Below, piece after piece: positions 1-7,229 of a DNA stretch of 64,000 bases; position 1 is the stretch's first letter; each line of letters opens with the position of its first letter. The DNA is from an uncultured bacterium. GTDB taxonomy: Bacteria; Cyanobacteriota; Vampirovibrionia; Gastranaerophilales; Gastranaerophilaceae. Location of the stretch: contig ONOE01000002.1 in assembly GCA_900319365.1 (NCBI GenBank), positions 62,001-126,000 of the forward strand. The letters run 5' to 3'. The notes beneath the pieces are model-generated. The model was not told the DNA's origin. It made no database searches and worked only from the letters and a program-made list of their open reading frames with translations. A program made the translations under genes and the position numbers.

Positions 1-1628
1 ATGTGTTTTTTGACCCCGGGGTTGAAACTTGGACATCAAGCGTTTATGTCGGGTATACCCCATCATCAAAAAATGATAATGCAGGTAAACTTGTATTGAA
101 TGCTGGTAATCTTACCTATGATGGTGGTGAGGGCTCAAGAAATCACAATCAGCCGCAATTACAGTTCAGATTTTCTCCTAATCCCTCGCAACAGGGTAAA
201 GGGGTGAATGCTGCTGATTTACTTGTACTATCAAACAATTTATTTTTCGGAACGGATCCCTCTTTGGCAAAGGGTCAACACAATACGATATACGGATTTT
301 CAAATTTGGAAAATGTTGTAAATATGAATAATGCCACGGTTTTGGGAGCTCATGCAATGAGTAAAGCGAAATTAACCCAAAGCGGAGCAAATCATCATAT
401 TATTGCAGCAGGCAGCCATGCCGGATATTACCTTGGCAAAACGGATTCATCTGATGTTGTGTCGGATACCTTTATAGGTGCGGGTGCAGGTTCAGGGAGT
501 GCTCAAGTAAAAAATGCACCCAATGCAAATATAGCTCTCGGGTATCAATCAATGTCAAAGGAAAACAACTCAGGCTCTCACAACGTTTTTGCAGGTATTC
601 AGACAGGTAACGGATTTAATAATGCAAATGCTTCTTATAATACGATTGTCGGTTCTTCGTATTACGGGAAGAATGCCGCATATAATACAATCGTCGGGTA
701 TGGAGTCTATGCTCAAGGCGATACCGATATAAAATATATGACTGCAATCGGTTACGGTGCTTGCGGTTCAATCGGCGGAAATAATACAAGCAAAATTGTA
801 TGTCTGGGGTATAATTCAGCATACACTTCAAATAATTCGCCCTCAAGAGTTACAACTGACGGCGGGGAGCATATATTTATCGGCGGAGTTCCAGATTCAA
901 CCAACACAAAAGGTTTTCCGGGGCGTGCCGTGTTAGAAGTACATAATAACGGCGACAGAGGAAATGTCGTTTTAAATTCAAACCTTGTTGTCAGAGGGAA
1001 TTATTACCCCGCAGATAACGCCGAATCTAAAATTGTATATAACACTTTAACCGATACAAAAACCATAGGCGCAGAAAATGCTTACTATCGCTGCAATGGT
1101 GATACTTTGCGTTCAATACTTTCATACAGAGGTTACGCTTGTAATCAAATGACCACATCTAATCCAAAGTCAATCAACGTTTGGCAAAAGGGAGGGGATT
1201 GTTCGTCCGATACAGAATACCCGAAAGGCAACGGATGCCCGAATATCACATCAGACAGAAGATTAAAAAATATCATAAGCGAAAATAACGACGGTCTTGA
1301 TAAGCTTGAACAGCTTGTTCCGTACAATTATGTTTACAAATCGGACAAAACAAGAACTCCTCATACGGGTGTAATTGCGCAGGATTTGCAGCAGGTATTT
1401 CCTATTTCCGTATCAAAGGACAGTAAAGGCTTTTTACAAATCCGCTGGGACGAAATGTTTTATGCGCTAATTAATTCAATAAAACAATTGAGCGCAAAAG
1501 TTGACGAATTGACAGGCAAAATTTCCGAGATGTCAAAAGATGTTTTGTCAATAAACTCAAAACAAAATGATATACAAAAAGAATTAAAAGTTCTAAATAA
1601 TAGAATAAACAAACTTGAAAGGAAGTAA
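1..1628 (+). CDS. Prepilin-type surface protein with YadA-like repeats and Peptidase S74 domain (5' truncated by window edge)
   Basis: The reading frame is open to the window edge, and the first in-frame start-like codon (GTG at 3) is probably not the true start. The opening residues match the region after the prepilin leader in the protein at 5288-7084 (a YVGYTP / YFGATP block followed by a QLQ-RF/RY block). About 50 N-terminal residues should therefore lie upstream. The middle has N-T-I-V-G type beta-roll repeats. A short stretch with several cysteines follows, then an intramolecular chaperone (Peptidase S74) domain. Its presumed self-cleavage serine is near residue 417 (TSDRRLKN), with HTGVIAQDLQQVFP and IRWDEMFYALINSIKQL downstream. 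The end is a coiled coil. The next homologue starts 6 bases later, so the two are probably co-transcribed. Function inferred: a trimeric surface fibre or adhesin. Confidence 0.8.
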   Translation, partial: VFFDPGVETWTSSVYVGYTPSSKNDNAGKLVLNAGNLTYDGGEGSRNHNQPQLQFRFSPNPSQQGKGVNAADLLVLSNNLFFGTDPSLAKGQHNTIYGFSNLENVVNMNNATVLGAHAMSKAKLTQSGANHHIIAAGSHAGYYLGKTDSSDVVSDTFIGAGAGSGSAQVKNAPNANIALGYQSMSKENNSGSHNVFAGIQTGNGFNNANASYNTIVGSSYYGKNAAYNTIVGYGVYAQGDTDIKYMTAIGYGACGSIGGNNTSKIVCLGYNSAYTSNNSPSRVTTDGGEHIFIGGVPDSTNTKGFPGRAVLEVHNNGDRGNVVLNSNLVVRGNYYPADNAESKIVYNTLTDTKTIGAENAYYRCNGDTLRSILSYRGYACNQMTTSNPKSINVWQKGGDCSSDTEYPKGNGCPNITSDRRLKNIISENNDGLDKLEQLVPYNYVYKSDKTRTPHTGVIAQDLQQVFPISVSKDSKGFLQIRWDEMFYALINSIKQLSAKVDELTGKISEMSKDVLSINSKQNDIQKELKVLNNRINKLERK

Positions 1629-1634
1629 TAACAG

Positions 1635-3755
1635 TTGAAAACAAAAGCTAAAAAATTGTATAACGCTTTTACGCTTGCGGAATTGATGGTCATAATGGCT
1701 GTTATGACGGTCGTTCTTGCTGCTGTTGCTCCTATTTTTACTTCAAGATATTCAAATGTATCTTATGATAATGTTTGGTCGCTAATCGGTGCAAGTAATA
1801 ATAACGATATCTATAATGATGCCCCCGGAAGATCTATGATGGCTGAAAGTTTAATCGGTATTACTCCTATCGATATGGAAGATGTCCGCAGAACTTATGC
1901 TCCGTATTCAAAAGTTATTATAAGATCAAGCGACAGAATAAATTCTAATAAACAACAAAGACAAATCGAATTTAAATACGGCAACAATACAACGGGTTAC
2001 TTATTTGCAGGTAACTATAACTTACTGCTTGGCGGAATGTATAATAATACCAAGTTTAATTATAATAAGATAAACCCGAACAACCCGACCGTTTTTACGG
2101 CAGATACAACTAATGCCGTCGCTAATACGGCTCTGGGGTCAAATGCTATGACAAGCCTTTCAACGGGTAAATATAATTCTGCATTCGGGTATAAAGCATT
2201 ATCTGACCTTACAACAGGTGAATATAACACCGCAGTCGGAGTTTTGGCAGGCAGTTCCGTTACGGCAGCTAAAGGCAATGTTTTAATAGGGTATCATTCT
2301 TACGATGCAGCAACGGGGGATTATAATACCGTAATCGGTCATAATAATTCATCTGTAAATAAATCCGTAGCGCATTACAATACGGCAATCGGTAATAATA
2401 TTTATGTAAAAGGAGAATATAATACCGCAATAGGCGACAGTTCAAATGCCGTCGGTAAATATAATACCGCAATCGGTTATGCATCACTAAATCAGTCAAG
2501 CCCTACAAGTTCCGGAGATAACGATTTTCAATATAATACCGCTGTAGGATATAAATCATGCTCAGGTATCGGTTCTAATTCAAAATATACAACATGTATC
2601 GGCGGAGTCGGGGTTGATTCTTCAAAAATGAGTTCAAGCGCCCAAGGCTTTTTCAACGATTCTCATTCACGAGTTTTAATCGGTTCTCCCGTTACAAAAT
2701 ACAAAAGTGCCGCAACTTTAGAAGTCCACAATTTGACTACAACTAACAGTAAATATCCTTATCCTGCAGGTGTTGCAAATTTTGAGATGGGGGATTCATC
2801 TGTTATAGTAAACGGCAATCTTATTGTAAGAGGGCAATCGTATTTCTTAGGCAAATCACCTTTTCCGATGAGTGCAACTTCACCTGGCAACAATTATGCA
2901 AATACTATGGCTTTAATGGGATTTAAATTGTTTAAAGAGGCAGTTACGACCTACAAGCCGTATATGGGATTTGACGGAAGCGAACCGACAATAAGAATTA
3001 GAGAAACTTATATGCATGAAAAATATGCGGGCAGAGAACATTGTATTTGTGCATATTCTTGTTCAAATTCATCAAAAGATTACTACAGCGCAGGTCATTA
3101 CGGACGTGATACATACGATTGGTCATATTTGAACTATCCGATTTATCATTATGTATATGAAAATCCGTTTGGCGGGTACAATTATTTCTGGGGAACAAGT
3201 GCAAACAGATGCGGGACTACATACAATGATAACAGCGATTCGTCAAATAATATTGAATTGAGCCGTTCCCACAATATTACTGACGGCGGAGAGAATTCTC
3301 CCGGGGCATTACTTTACGGCGGTTCATGCTGTCCTATTCTTAACCCAGGAGGTGTAAGATTTTCTACTAATTCCGTATCAAGCGACAGAAATCTGAAAAA
3401 TATATTTGATATTTATACCTCAGGACTTGACTCGTTATCAAAACTTAAAATATATGATTATTACTTCAATTCTGACGATTCAAAATCCATTCATACGGGT
3501 GTAATTGCGCAGGATTTAAAACGCATATTCCCGACTTCTGTTTCAAAACGTGATGACGGATATCTGAAAATACGTTGGGACGAAATGTTCTATGCGGCTA
3601 TTAATTCGGTAAAACAATTACATAAGAAAGTTATTAAACTTGCTCAAAATGCAGATAATAACATTACAAGAATAAACAAATTGAAAAAAGATAACGAAAT
3701 GTTAGAAAACAAAGTTCTTGAATTGTCAAAAGAGCTTGATAAGTTGGAAAAATAA
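1635..3755 (+). CDS. Type IV prepilin-like protein with YadA-like beta-roll repeats and C-terminal Peptidase S74 chaperone domain
   Basis: 706 residues from a TTG start preceded by AGGAAG with about 9 bases of spacing. The N-terminus is a class III prepilin leader: basic residues, then AFTLAELMV with Ala at -1, Phe at +1 (residue 12) and Glu at +5, then a hydrophobic helix. Residues ~165-330 carry many YNTAIG-type repeats spaced as in YadA-like head or tail-fibre beta-rolls. Residues ~440-570 form a Tyr- and Cys-rich variable segment. The S74 domain starts at Ser583 (SSDRNLKN) and includes HTGVIAQDLKRIFP. The last ~55 residues are a coiled coil. S74 domains in phage tail spikes trimerise the fibre and then cut themselves off; the prepilin leader suggests export by a type IV pilus or type II-like machine. 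Role inferred: surface fibre. Confidence 0.85.
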   Translation: MKTKAKKLYNAFTLAELMVIMAVMTVVLAAVAPIFTSRYSNVSYDNVWSLIGASNNNDIYNDAPGRSMMAESLIGITPIDMEDVRRTYAPYSKVIIRSSDRINSNKQQRQIEFKYGNNTTGYLFAGNYNLLLGGMYNNTKFNYNKINPNNPTVFTADTTNAVANTALGSNAMTSLSTGKYNSAFGYKALSDLTTGEYNTAVGVLAGSSVTAAKGNVLIGYHSYDAATGDYNTVIGHNNSSVNKSVAHYNTAIGNNIYVKGEYNTAIGDSSNAVGKYNTAIGYASLNQSSPTSSGDNDFQYNTAVGYKSCSGIGSNSKYTTCIGGVGVDSSKMSSSAQGFFNDSHSRVLIGSPVTKYKSAATLEVHNLTTTNSKYPYPAGVANFEMGDSSVIVNGNLIVRGQSYFLGKSPFPMSATSPGNNYANTMALMGFKLFKEAVTTYKPYMGFDGSEPTIRIRETYMHEKYAGREHCICAYSCSNSSKDYYSAGHYGRDTYDWSYLNYPIYHYVYENPFGGYNYFWGTSANRCGTTYNDNSDSSNNIELSRSHNITDGGENSPGALLYGGSCCPILNPGGVRFSTNSVSSDRNLKNIFDIYTSGLDSLSKLKIYDYYFNSDDSKSIHTGVIAQDLKRIFPTSVSKRDDGYLKIRWDEMFYAAINSVKQLHKKVIKLAQNADNNITRINKLKKDNEMLENKVLELSKELDKLEK

Positions 3756-3830: not shown

Positions 3831-5105
3831 TTAAGCACAACCGCATCCGCAAGCTGTTGCTGCATCTTGTAATTCTTGAGCTTTATCCGTGTGTTCCCAA
3901 GGAACGTCAATATCGGTTCTGCCCATGTGCCCGTATGCTGCTAACAATCTGTAGAATTTACCGCCGTTTTTAGCGGGTAAATTCCTTAAATCAAATTTGT
4001 TAATTATACCTGCGGGTGTTAAATCAAATGTTTTTGAAACAATGTTTGATAATTCTTCATCAGATATTTTACCTGTTCCGAATGTATCAACCATGATTGA
4101 AAGAGGCTCTGCAACACCGATTGCATAAGCGAGTTCGATTTCGCATCTTTGAGCTAAGCCTGCTGCAACAATATTTTTGGCAACATAACGTGCTGCATAA
4201 GCTGCCGATCTGTCAACTTTCGTCGGATCTTTGCCTGAAAAAGCACCGCCGCCGTGGCGAGAATAACCGCCGTATGTATCGACAATGATTTTTCTTCCCG
4301 TTAAGCCCGAATCTCCTTGAGGTCCGCCTATGACAAATCTTCCTGACGGGTTAATTAAAATAATAGTATCTTTATCGGGTTTTATATTGCAGGTTTTAAA
4401 AACATAATCAATAACAAGTCTTTTCAAATCCTGTTCAATAATTTCTTGAACTTTTTCATTATCGGAAATACCGTCAATTTCAGGATTATGCTGGGTTGAT
4501 AATAAAATTGTGTGGATTCTGTAAGGCTTGTTGTCTTTATATTCAACAGTTACCTGAGATTTTCCGTCGGGTCTTAAATAATTAACAAGACCTTCTTTTC
4601 TAACCTGCGCAAGCCTGTGAGCAAGTTTGTGAGCCAGGCTTATTGGCATAGGCATCAGTTCTGGAGTTTCGTTGCAAGCATAACCGAACATTATTCCCTG
4701 ATCTCCTGCGCCAAGCTCTTTGGTTTCGGTAGTTGAAGTGTCGGCATTATTAATGCGAGATTCAAGAGCCTTATTAACTCCGTTGCCGATATCTTTTGAT
4801 TGTTCGTCTATACTTGTTAAAACTGCGCAAGTATCAGCATCAAATCCGCCCGAACAATCTCCGCTATAGCCGATATCTCTGATTGTGTTTCTGACTACGT
4901 TTGCTATATCAACATAACAATTAGAAGTTATTTCTCCGCATATAAGAGCCATACCGGTTGTTACCGTAGTTTCAGCGGCAACTCTTGAATGCGGGTCTTT
5001 TGTTAAAAACTCATCTAAAATTGCATCAGATATCTGATCGCAAACTTTGTCGGGGTGTCCTTCGGTAACAGATTCCGAAGTGAACAAAAAATTTTTTACT
5101 GTCAT
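3831..5105 (-). CDS. metK: S-adenosylmethionine synthetase
   Basis: Makes S-adenosylmethionine from methionine and ATP in the cytoplasm. 424 residues, slightly longer than the usual 380-400. Visible motifs are GHPDK (16-20), the ATP-site hexapeptide GAGDQG (132-137) and the GGGAFSGKD loop in the second half. The start is the ATG at 5105, with AAGGAG about 9 bases upstream. The far C-terminus ends in an unusual cysteine-rich tail (ACGCGCA). The gene is monocistronic: it has its own promoter, a structured GC-rich leader and a shared bidirectional terminator. It lies between prepilin/S74 genes with no obvious functional link. Identification is secure; the role of the Cys tail is unknown. Confidence 0.97.
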
Positions 5106-5205
5106 CTTTTTTTTCTCCTTAATTTCTTTCAGCCGGTAAGGTTTTTAATTCCGACCCGGCATCTTATTACAACAACACGCCGGCATGATAATGCTGACCT
5201 GCTTT
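5106..5205 (-). promoter_or_regulatory. Structured 5' leader of metK, candidate riboswitch-like element
   Basis: About 100 bases between the predicted start of transcription and the metK ATG. It is far more GC-rich in patches than its surroundings. On the minus strand it has a GCAT-TATC-ATGC hairpin (5185-5196), GCCGGC (5179-5184), GCCGGG (5155-5160) and CCGGC (5132-5136), so GCCGG/CCGGC arms can pair in alternative ways. UCAGC near the 5' end can also pair with GCUGA after the last arm. A CCUUA (5137-5141) just before the CCGGC arm can pair with UAAGG of the Shine-Dalgarno (5117-5121). This suggests translational control. I could not match it to a known SAM-riboswitch class. Confidence 0.45.
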
Positions 5206-5210
5206 AAAAT

Positions 5211-5239
5211 AGTGTAGTTCAAACATTTTATATTATCAA
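5211..5239 (-). promoter_or_regulatory. Predicted sigma-70 promoter of metK
   Basis: TTGATA (5234-5239, read on the minus strand), a 17-base spacer, then TACACT (5211-5216). Transcription would start near 5204, exactly at the edge of the structured leader. Confidence 0.5.
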
Positions 5240-5287
5240 ATTGTTAACAAGTTTTATAAAGTAATGTTACGCTTTAAAAGGGATAAA

Positions 5288-7084
5288 TTACTTTGCATGT
5301 TTCAATGCATCAACACGATTTGATAAAATATTTATCTGTTGTTTTAAATATTGGTTGCGCTTTTCAAGTTTTGTTATCTTTTTGCCAATGCTCAAATTCT
5401 GTTTAACCAATTTTGTGATTTTTGTATTTAATTCTTTAATTGAATTTATTGCAGCATAGAACATTTCATCCCAACGGATTTTGAAATATCCGTTTTCATC
5501 CTGCGATACGGAATTGGGAAATATTTTTTGCAATTCTTGTGCTATAACACCTACATGAGGCTTTTTGTCTTTGTCGTTTTTAAATGTATAATTATAAATT
5601 TTTAACTGATTAATTTTATCAAGTCCGTCATTATTTTTGCCGACTATGGTTTTTAATCTTCTGTCGCTTGTTGCAGAAATTGACGATAACCCCGAGCAAT
5701 AGCCTGATGTAACAAACGAATAAGTTCCCTGATTTGTTGCACAAGGAGCGGTTATATTTGTGCCGTAAATCTCTTTGCCGTTCATATTAGCATAATAGAA
5801 CGGGTATAAAACATTACCGACCGTGAAAAATGCTCTGCCACGAACAATTAAGTTTCCGTTAATAATCGTAGTTGTATTTGAAATAATTGAAGGATCGTTT
5901 ATAAGGTGCGAATTGCCCGAACCAAGAGAATTATGAATTTCCATAACGGCATCTCCGCCATATAGAACAGTACCTTTGCCCCAATTACCGTCAGAATCCA
6001 TATTGGGATTGCTGCCGATATAGGTTCTGGGAGTTGTATCTGATGCATCTGTTCCAATATCTGTTTTAACGGGAGAATTAGCTGCGGGACCTGAATTGTA
6101 GCCTATACATGTTTTATAGGATTCGCCTTTAATATTTTCGCAGGCATTATATCCTATTGCAACGTTATAATGCCCTGTTGTAAGTTTATGTAAAGCGCCC
6201 GATCCGATTGCGACATTATTTTTACCGCTTGTAATACTGTTTAATGCTTTATAACCTAAAGCTACATTATATTGGAAATCATAAGAGCTTGTTGTACCGT
6301 TATCCTCGCCCTCTCTGTAATTTCCTGTATTCGCACCGATAAATGTATTGTAGTTGCCTATATTAGAAGTCGATTTGTAACCTATTAAGGTGTTTCCGTC
6401 GGTTGTTGTTTGAGCTCCCGCAAGATAACCTATCATTGTATTTCTTGAACCTGAAATATTCTTTTCTCCTGCGCCTGCTCCGATTGCGGTATTGTTTTCT
6501 CCAAAAGATACAACGCCGAGTGCATTATATCCAAACGCAGTATTTCCTTGCAAAATTTCAGCCGTATTATCTCTGTCTTGAGCCTGATTTAAGCTGTTTA
6601 CCCCGAATCCTACGTTATCAGACGGATAAGTTTTATATGATTTCAGTTCTTTTAAAGCGGGAAAAGCTCCGCCAAAGAGCATATTCCTGTTATCGGCAAC
6701 AAAAGATGCCGCAAATTGCCCGGGATCATCAAATGATGATCTGCCATATCTTAATTGCAATTGCCTTTGAATATTATTATTTGCGGTAAACCCCGAGCGA
6801 ATAGTCATTTTAGACAAAGGAAGATAAGACATTTTTATGTCATTTTCCGAATCAGGGGTAGCACCGAAATATATTCCGCCGTTATAACCGTTGCCGGGTT
6901 GATAGAAAGTATCCATGGGACCTGCAAGATAGTTTCTGCTTGCCCATAGCCATAATTCTGTTTTGCCTCTGGAACGTCTTTTTGTGATAAAAGGAGCAAA
7001 AGCCGCAAATAATATAGTCAGTACAAGCAGTACAACCATTACTTCCGCAAGCGTAAATGCATGTTTTTTTCTGTGTTTTAGCAT
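5288..7084 (-). CDS. Type IV prepilin-like protein with YadA-like repeats and Peptidase S74 domain
   Basis: Third member of the family, on the opposite strand and 182 bases upstream of metK. The chosen start is the ATG at 7084, because GGGAG lies six bases before it. An in-frame ATG at 7096 has a weaker site and would add four residues. The prepilin leader reads HAFTLAEVMVVL (Ala -1, Phe +1, Glu +5) and is followed by one transmembrane-like helix. About 15 N-T-x-I-G beta-roll units occupy residues ~150-330. A short Cys-containing segment (GYCSG) precedes the presumed S74 cleavage serine at about residue 473 (TSDRRLKT). HVGVIAQELQKIFP and an IRWDEMFYAAINSIKEL helix follow, then a long coiled coil to the end. 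Predicted role: self-trimerising surface fibre or adhesin. Confidence 0.85.
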   Translation of the reverse strand: MLKHRKKHAFTLAEVMVVLLVLTILFAAFAPFITKRRSRGKTELWLWASRNYLAGPMDTFYQPGNGYNGGIYFGATPDSENDIKMSYLPLSKMTIRSGFTANNNIQRQLQLRYGRSSFDDPGQFAASFVADNRNMLFGGAFPALKELKSYKTYPSDNVGFGVNSLNQAQDRDNTAEILQGNTAFGYNALGVVSFGENNTAIGAGAGEKNISGSRNTMIGYLAGAQTTTDGNTLIGYKSTSNIGNYNTFIGANTGNYREGEDNGTTSSYDFQYNVALGYKALNSITSGKNNVAIGSGALHKLTTGHYNVAIGYNACENIKGESYKTCIGYNSGPAANSPVKTDIGTDASDTTPRTYIGSNPNMDSDGNWGKGTVLYGGDAVMEIHNSLGSGNSHLINDPSIISNTTTIINGNLIVRGRAFFTVGNVLYPFYYANMNGKEIYGTNITAPCATNQGTYSFVTSGYCSGLSSISATSDRRLKTIVGKNNDGLDKINQLKIYNYTFKNDKDKKPHVGVIAQELQKIFPNSVSQDENGYFKIRWDEMFYAAINSIKELNTKITKLVKQNLSIGKKITKLEKRNQYLKQQINILSNRVDALKHAK

Positions 7085-7229
7085 TAATACTCCCATATCA
7101 ACTCTTTTATATAATTATAACATATTATATGAACTATTTCAATTATTTAAAATTTGCCATTAATGTGTTTTTTTGCTGCTTTTGTGGTAGCCTTTAAATA
7201 TAAATAATTTAAAATATGAGGATATAGTG

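Follow-up and report, generated by a model that had tools for sequence, protein, structure and literature searches.

Does the leader of metK in an uncultured bacterium of the family Gastranaerophilaceae carry a regulatory RNA, and if so, what does that RNA sense? In the window, the whole 64,000-nucleotide stretch analysed here (contig ONOE01000002.1), the initial annotation had placed a TTGATA-17-TACACT promoter before metK, followed by a leader with alternative GCCGG/CCGGC pairings and a CCUUA able to pair with the ribosome site. The promoter is present on the minus strand, and the locus has the following parts:

3831–5105, minus strand: metK, S-adenosylmethionine (SAM) synthetase, ATG at 5105, three Pfam S-AdoMet_synt domains.
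5211–5239, minus strand: sigma-70-like promoter, TTGATA at 5239–5234, TACACT at 5216–5211, with a counterpart in 91 of 93 relatives.
5174–5203, minus strand: extra upstream hairpin outside the conserved element, recognised from predicted fold and spacing, in a stretch absent in most relatives.

Upstream of metK, the minus-strand ORF 5288–7096 has both a type IV pilin-like N-methylation motif and a Peptidase_S74 chaperone domain; ORFs 3–1628 and 1635–3755 resemble it by eye.

In the source genome alone, promoter-like sites are at background level (8 vs 8.3 expected) and the fold of the metK leader has a z of −1.44. Since the features of one genome are statistically unremarkable, the leader was compared with those of relatives. 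MetK turned up in 141 of the 146 source-family genomes. These genomes and 10 contig records together supplied 140 leaders, and 137 were usable automatically; L096, L116 and L120 fell outside this number on account of orientation, and the leaders of their genomes were inspected separately. A 23-nt core, GGGUYGGAAUUAAAAAMCUUACC, was found with at most 4 edits in 93 of the 137 leaders. At the genome level the motif stands before metK in 95 of the 141 family genomes that have the gene, and the leader with its anti-Shine-Dalgarno is kept in 26 of 41 genera, mostly on an all-or-none basis within a genus. Of the 46 genomes not scored as motif-bearing, some make up the entire sample of 15 genera, and a few are cases at a contig edge. 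The metK leaders L193, L198, L201 and L203, from a single genus (g18), lack the motif and share, in their last 75 nt, a hairpin-like stretch CTCGACGG...GACGGGTTTG that matched no Rfam family and is possibly a different metK leader RNA.

The conserved element lies between the promoter and metK and has the consensus GCCGG-GUYGGAAUUAAAAA-MCUUA-CCGGC-linker-AAUUAAGGAG-AUG. Its parts in the source genome are:

5114–5161, minus strand (read 5161–5114): whole metK-leader RNA element, 48 nt; covariance model R1 matches at G000:C18:67114-67161 with E 3.1e-13 and 70.8 bits.
5156–5160, minus strand: P1 5′ arm GCCGG, pairing with 5136–5132.
5142–5155, minus strand: loop L1, GUCGGAAUUAAAAA, near-invariant columns; GUYGG fixed, A-rich part 9 nt (4 nt in three variants).
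5137–5141, minus strand: putative pseudoknot 5′ strand CCUUA (anti-Shine-Dalgarno), complementary to UAAGG at 5121–5117.
5132–5136, minus strand: P1 3′ arm CCGGC, from alignment A1, RNAalifold and covariation.
5122–5131, minus strand: linker L3, 8 nt minimum among relatives.
5117–5121, minus strand: putative pseudoknot 3′ strand UAAGG, complementary to loop CCUUA.
5115–5120, minus strand: Shine-Dalgarno AAGGAG, within AATTAAGGAG in 92 of 93 motif leaders and TATTAAGGAG in 1.

Pairing in the leader was analysed in alignment A1, which holds 64 of the 93 sequences after removal of identical rows and of linkers longer than 25 nt. RNAalifold returned the 5-bp stem P1 with double-sided changes at three of its five pairs in some sequences, and four of six P1 stem pairs tested vary on both sides yet remain paired. 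The covariation score over P1 (6 pairs) and the pseudoknot (5 pairs) was 0.120, a score that no slid version and not one of 500 shuffles attained; P1 is the source of the entire signal. The covariation among homologous leaders whose absence the initial annotation had named as grounds for rejection is therefore present. One of its GCCGG/CCGGC pairings, 5160–5156 with 5136–5132, is this covarying stem. The alternatives with the upstream GCCGGC fared otherwise: they fall in an unconserved stretch, apparently specific to the source genome, where about 35 extra bases containing this GCCGGC (about 5184–5179) lie between the −10 element and P1. The upstream hairpin at 5174–5203, which includes the GCCGGC, could compete for a P1 arm in the source genome.

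A riboswitch is generally expected to be a structured, conserved RNA that precedes a metabolic gene in its 5′ leader; such an RNA, associated with metK, is found here. It is almost certainly a cis-regulatory element. Most positions of its core carry about 2 bits of information, compared with mostly 0.1–0.7 bits in the region 10–60 nt upstream; because this holds for most unpaired loop bases as well, with low flanks, a binding pocket is indicated.

The position of the promoter relative to the element is also regular. A TTGNNN-16..18-TANNNT pair lies 5′ of the motif in those 91 of 93 leaders; mononucleotide shuffles gave a mean of 26.5 and a maximum of 34 of 93. Of the 91, 78 have a 17-nt spacer, and the distance from the end of the −10 element to P1 has its mode at 15 nt (32 leaders). 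From this distance, the metK mRNA probably starts about 8 nt 5′ of P1, so that the motif would be nearly the whole leader. Distances of 40–49 nt occur in only 4 of the 91, the source genome (49 nt) among them.

All 96 motif leaders (the 93 and three with a short loop) have a UUAAGG ribosome site that is pairable with loop CUUA, compared with none of 40 motif-less leaders, a count from which L157 with its 3-nt leader was excluded. The sequence AATTAAGG occurs at the ribosome site of 96 of 96 motif leaders (in one as TATTAAGG) vs 0 of 40 (Fisher 2e-35, ignoring relatedness), and the arrangement AATTAAGGAG-N5-11-ATG occurs 6 times in the whole source genome. Linker L3 is at least 8 nt in all leaders, as an H-type pseudoknot requires. 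In 15 of the 93 relatives, 40–87 nt, often hairpin-like, separate the core from the ribosome site. Seven of these 15 long inserts (L099, L100, L101, L107, L113, L141 and L153) are hairpins, placed 3′ of P1 and 5′ of the ribosome site, that carry a further UAAGG, a possible decoy or alternative partner of loop CUUA.

The four CUUA:UAAG pairs do not vary in any of the 64 sequences; at the fifth, 40 have C-G and 24 have A/G. Because the pairs are near-invariant, covariation neither proves nor disproves the pseudoknot, and its 3′ strand is conserved regardless, as ribosome site. The complementarity that the initial annotation had pointed out, constant among the relatives, nevertheless makes a ribosome-site pseudoknot very probable. 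The duplex alone is computed at −4.8 kcal/mol, weakening to −2.0 when position 21 is A, against −8.2 for a generic duplex of Shine-Dalgarno and anti-Shine-Dalgarno (with the 16S end as generally known). By itself it is weak and would therefore need support against the competing ribosome; a stabilising ligand would turn metK translation off.

Loop deletions of 5 or 6 nt are present in three leaders, L127, L013 and L204. These are independent, and each leaves a spacing of exactly 4 nt from GG to C(C/U). In L204, G7.A25 is replaced by A7.G25, a joint change that is as expected for a non-canonical pair atop P1. Columns 9 and 21 of A1 (Y9 and M21) are associated (C/C in 49, U/A in 32, C/A in 6 and U/C in 6 of 93) but make no obvious pair; the association may be due to kinship or to a base triple.

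Across the phylum (386 genomes), model R1 matched at E≤0.01 in 134 genomes, and all the matches listed lay in the source family (24 of 142 genera). Among the matches listed for 382 genomes of the class, those outside the family had E 0.135 or weaker, and in 35 metK loci of other families, orders and cyanobacteria none reached E 0.4. Two motif patterns gave 0 matches each in viral contigs, the motif had no match in plasmids, and phages gave only matches of E 0.9 within lysin genes. Weak R1 matches outside metK leaders (per-genome E 8e-4 to 0.5), mostly coding or loop-less, were inspected individually and judged to be due to chance.

One genome (G132) has another intact copy at L251:640-703, minus strand, before an excisionase-like gene (L251:419-646) that belongs to an integrated element. 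It has one core mismatch, UAAGG directly before the start codon, and a wholly different yet paired stem, CGUGG/CCACG, which lends further support to P1 pairing. The gene encodes a 75-aa excisionase-like ORF, HTH_17-like below the Pfam cut-off, that has no known or obvious tie to SAM and is followed by an integrase-like ORF with Arm-DNA-bind_4. This copy is independent evidence for a portable RNA unit. Homologues of the excisionase-like protein are present in 20 of 383 genomes; across the 22 loci (21 places) searched, a convincing motif stands only at the original copy, and the protein has no relative in viral contigs. A metabolite switch before a mobile-element excisionase would be unusual. 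In another genome (G255), a degenerate copy at L360:2041-2082 with a weakened stem and a promoter remnant has no in-frame gene and no metK; it is probably what remains of a metK leader.

The initial annotation had recognised no known SAM class before metK, and Rfam bears this out. At gathering score the whole window yielded tRNAs only; at E≤10, the region 5000–5330 gave only chance matches, with no SAM, SAH or preQ1-I family. Twenty further motif-bearing leader loci had no match at E≤1, and 20 motif-less loci had only tRNAs at gathering score. No earlier description of the motif was found in the open-licence literature. The structured metK leader is thus real and, as far as searched, undescribed.

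We consider that this leader is probably a small cis-acting translational OFF riboswitch for SAM, of a class absent from Rfam. We infer SAM as its ligand, the pseudoknot as its OFF state and the inner GG:CY pairing as the alternative. The mRNA would start a few nucleotides 5′ of the 5-bp P1, in whose loop GUYGG is followed by an A-rich stretch and then (C/A)CUUA. At low SAM, the loop would be weakly self-closed (GG with CC or CU) or open, leaving AAGGAG free and metK translated. At high SAM, the ligand would sit in a pocket that GUYGG makes up together with the G.A pair atop P1 and the junction of P1 and pseudoknot, and would stabilise the weak helix (C)CUUA:UAAG(G), so that the ribosome site would be covered. 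Loop residues C22 and U23 could pair with G10 and G11 or with the ribosome site, never with both, and the four nucleotides kept between GG and C(C/U) in the short-loop variants may reflect the need of a small closed stem.

The same nucleotides could instead be read as a hairpin for a protein, with MetK or another RNA-binding protein blocking translation by recognising P1, a GUY/UUA internal loop with the G.A pair, a short GG:CY stem and the A-rich loop. The predicted minimum-energy fold of the leader, a P1 hairpin with inner GG:CC pairs and a free Shine-Dalgarno, is exactly such a hairpin, the 4 nt left by each of the three independent deletions look like a tetraloop-like cap, and the exchange of G7.A25 for A7.G25 in L204 also speaks for it. 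Left unexplained is why the fixed Shine-Dalgarno context AAUUAAGG should accompany the motif; furthermore, we know of no candidate protein, and we regard this reading as unlikely. A riboswitch built the same way and likewise acting on translation may instead respond to SAH, methionine, a nucleoside or some other metabolite, given that the structural evidence is ligand-blind and that the copy at the excisionase-like gene lacks an obvious SAM link. To our knowledge, the metK-leader riboswitches described so far bind SAM or SAH, and metK is downstream of every intact copy identified but one, both of which make a different ligand rather improbable.

That the CCGG...CCGG inverted repeat is a DNA operator bound by a regulator of methionine-gene transcription is suggested by its being short and next to a promoter. 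The repeat, however, is downstream of the predicted start, and its arms change letters yet stay complementary, whereas an operator would have to keep its sequence. Its conserved loop is asymmetric, and this reading gives no reason for the link to the ribosome site; an operator is thus very improbable. As for a functionless chance GC-rich hairpin or terminator, the single-genome z and the background promoter count are what it would predict, but it is refuted by conservation: the motif recurs in 95 of 141 genomes, the stem covaries, and no terminator-like site was found at the metK leader, so that the trivial terminator envisaged by the initial annotation can be set aside as well. We give a chance origin practically no weight. 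A leader peptide, NTG-CCG-GGT-YGG-AAT-TAA, which is a mini-ORF in the source genome, was also considered and rejected, an in-frame NTG preceding CCG in only 32 of 93 leaders.

If it binds SAM, the metK element would be one more SAM riboswitch class and one of the smallest; it would also account for the control of SAM synthesis in a little-studied gut lineage. A fuller proposal is tentative and may well not hold: a further SAM class, about 48 nt long and limited to gut bacteria of the Gastranaerophilales type, whose ON hairpin (GG:CY) and OFF pseudoknot share a 4–5-nt loop segment, and whose capture by a mobile element before an excisionase would tie excision to the SAM level of the host. Eight SAM riboswitch classes are listed in one account, which presents SAM-VI as a translational OFF switch (PMC13314739). 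At 48 nt, the consensus lends itself to direct synthesis and, from there, to in-line probing and crystallography.

Several known RNAs resemble the element in part. The preQ1-I riboswitch is a tiny H-type pseudoknot near the ribosome site, as is predicted here, but it gave no match at E≤10 and no queuosine gene is downstream here. SAM-III (the SMK box) and SAM-VI exert translational control of SAM-synthetase genes, as proposed here; unlike these multi-stem aptamers, which had no match, the metK element has one stem and a predicted pseudoknot. SAM-V forms an H-type pseudoknot. With SAM-II and SAM-V the element would share this fold, a conserved L1 facing the pseudoknot helix and U/A residues of the helix at the core, features that PMC11508383 describes for these classes. 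It differs from both in sequence and loop lengths, has no match to their covariance models, and is found almost exclusively at metK. The SAM-Chlorobi motif (RF01724) is, similarly, a metK-associated structured leader of one phylum only, but gave no match. In the preliminary in-line probing reported in PMC2864571, SAM-Chlorobi RNAs, which stand before metK and ahcY, did not bind SAM or SAH; association with metK is therefore no guarantee of SAM binding.

Closest in design is the SAM/SAH riboswitch (RF01727) of Rhodobacterales. According to PMC2864571, SAM/SAH riboswitches were predicted from their exclusive association with metK in one order and validated later. The metK element has no match to the RF01727 covariance model, has another loop sequence, belongs to another phylum, outside Rhodobacterales, and has its pseudoknot 5′ strand abutting the P1 3′ arm. 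Like RF01727, it is very small, directly 5′ of metK and limited to one lineage (PMC2864571). The crystal structure described in PMC7367207 is an H-type pseudoknot that occludes the ribosome site and has AUU just before the 3′ strand; a pseudoknot with the ribosome site as its 3′ strand is likewise predicted here from constant complementarity, its invariant pairs giving no covariation. The same source describes P1 as extended by non-canonical pairs, like the G.A pair proposed atop P1 here, and places A43 U44 U45 followed by G46 in RF01727 where the metK element has AAUU followed by AAGG (PMC7367207).
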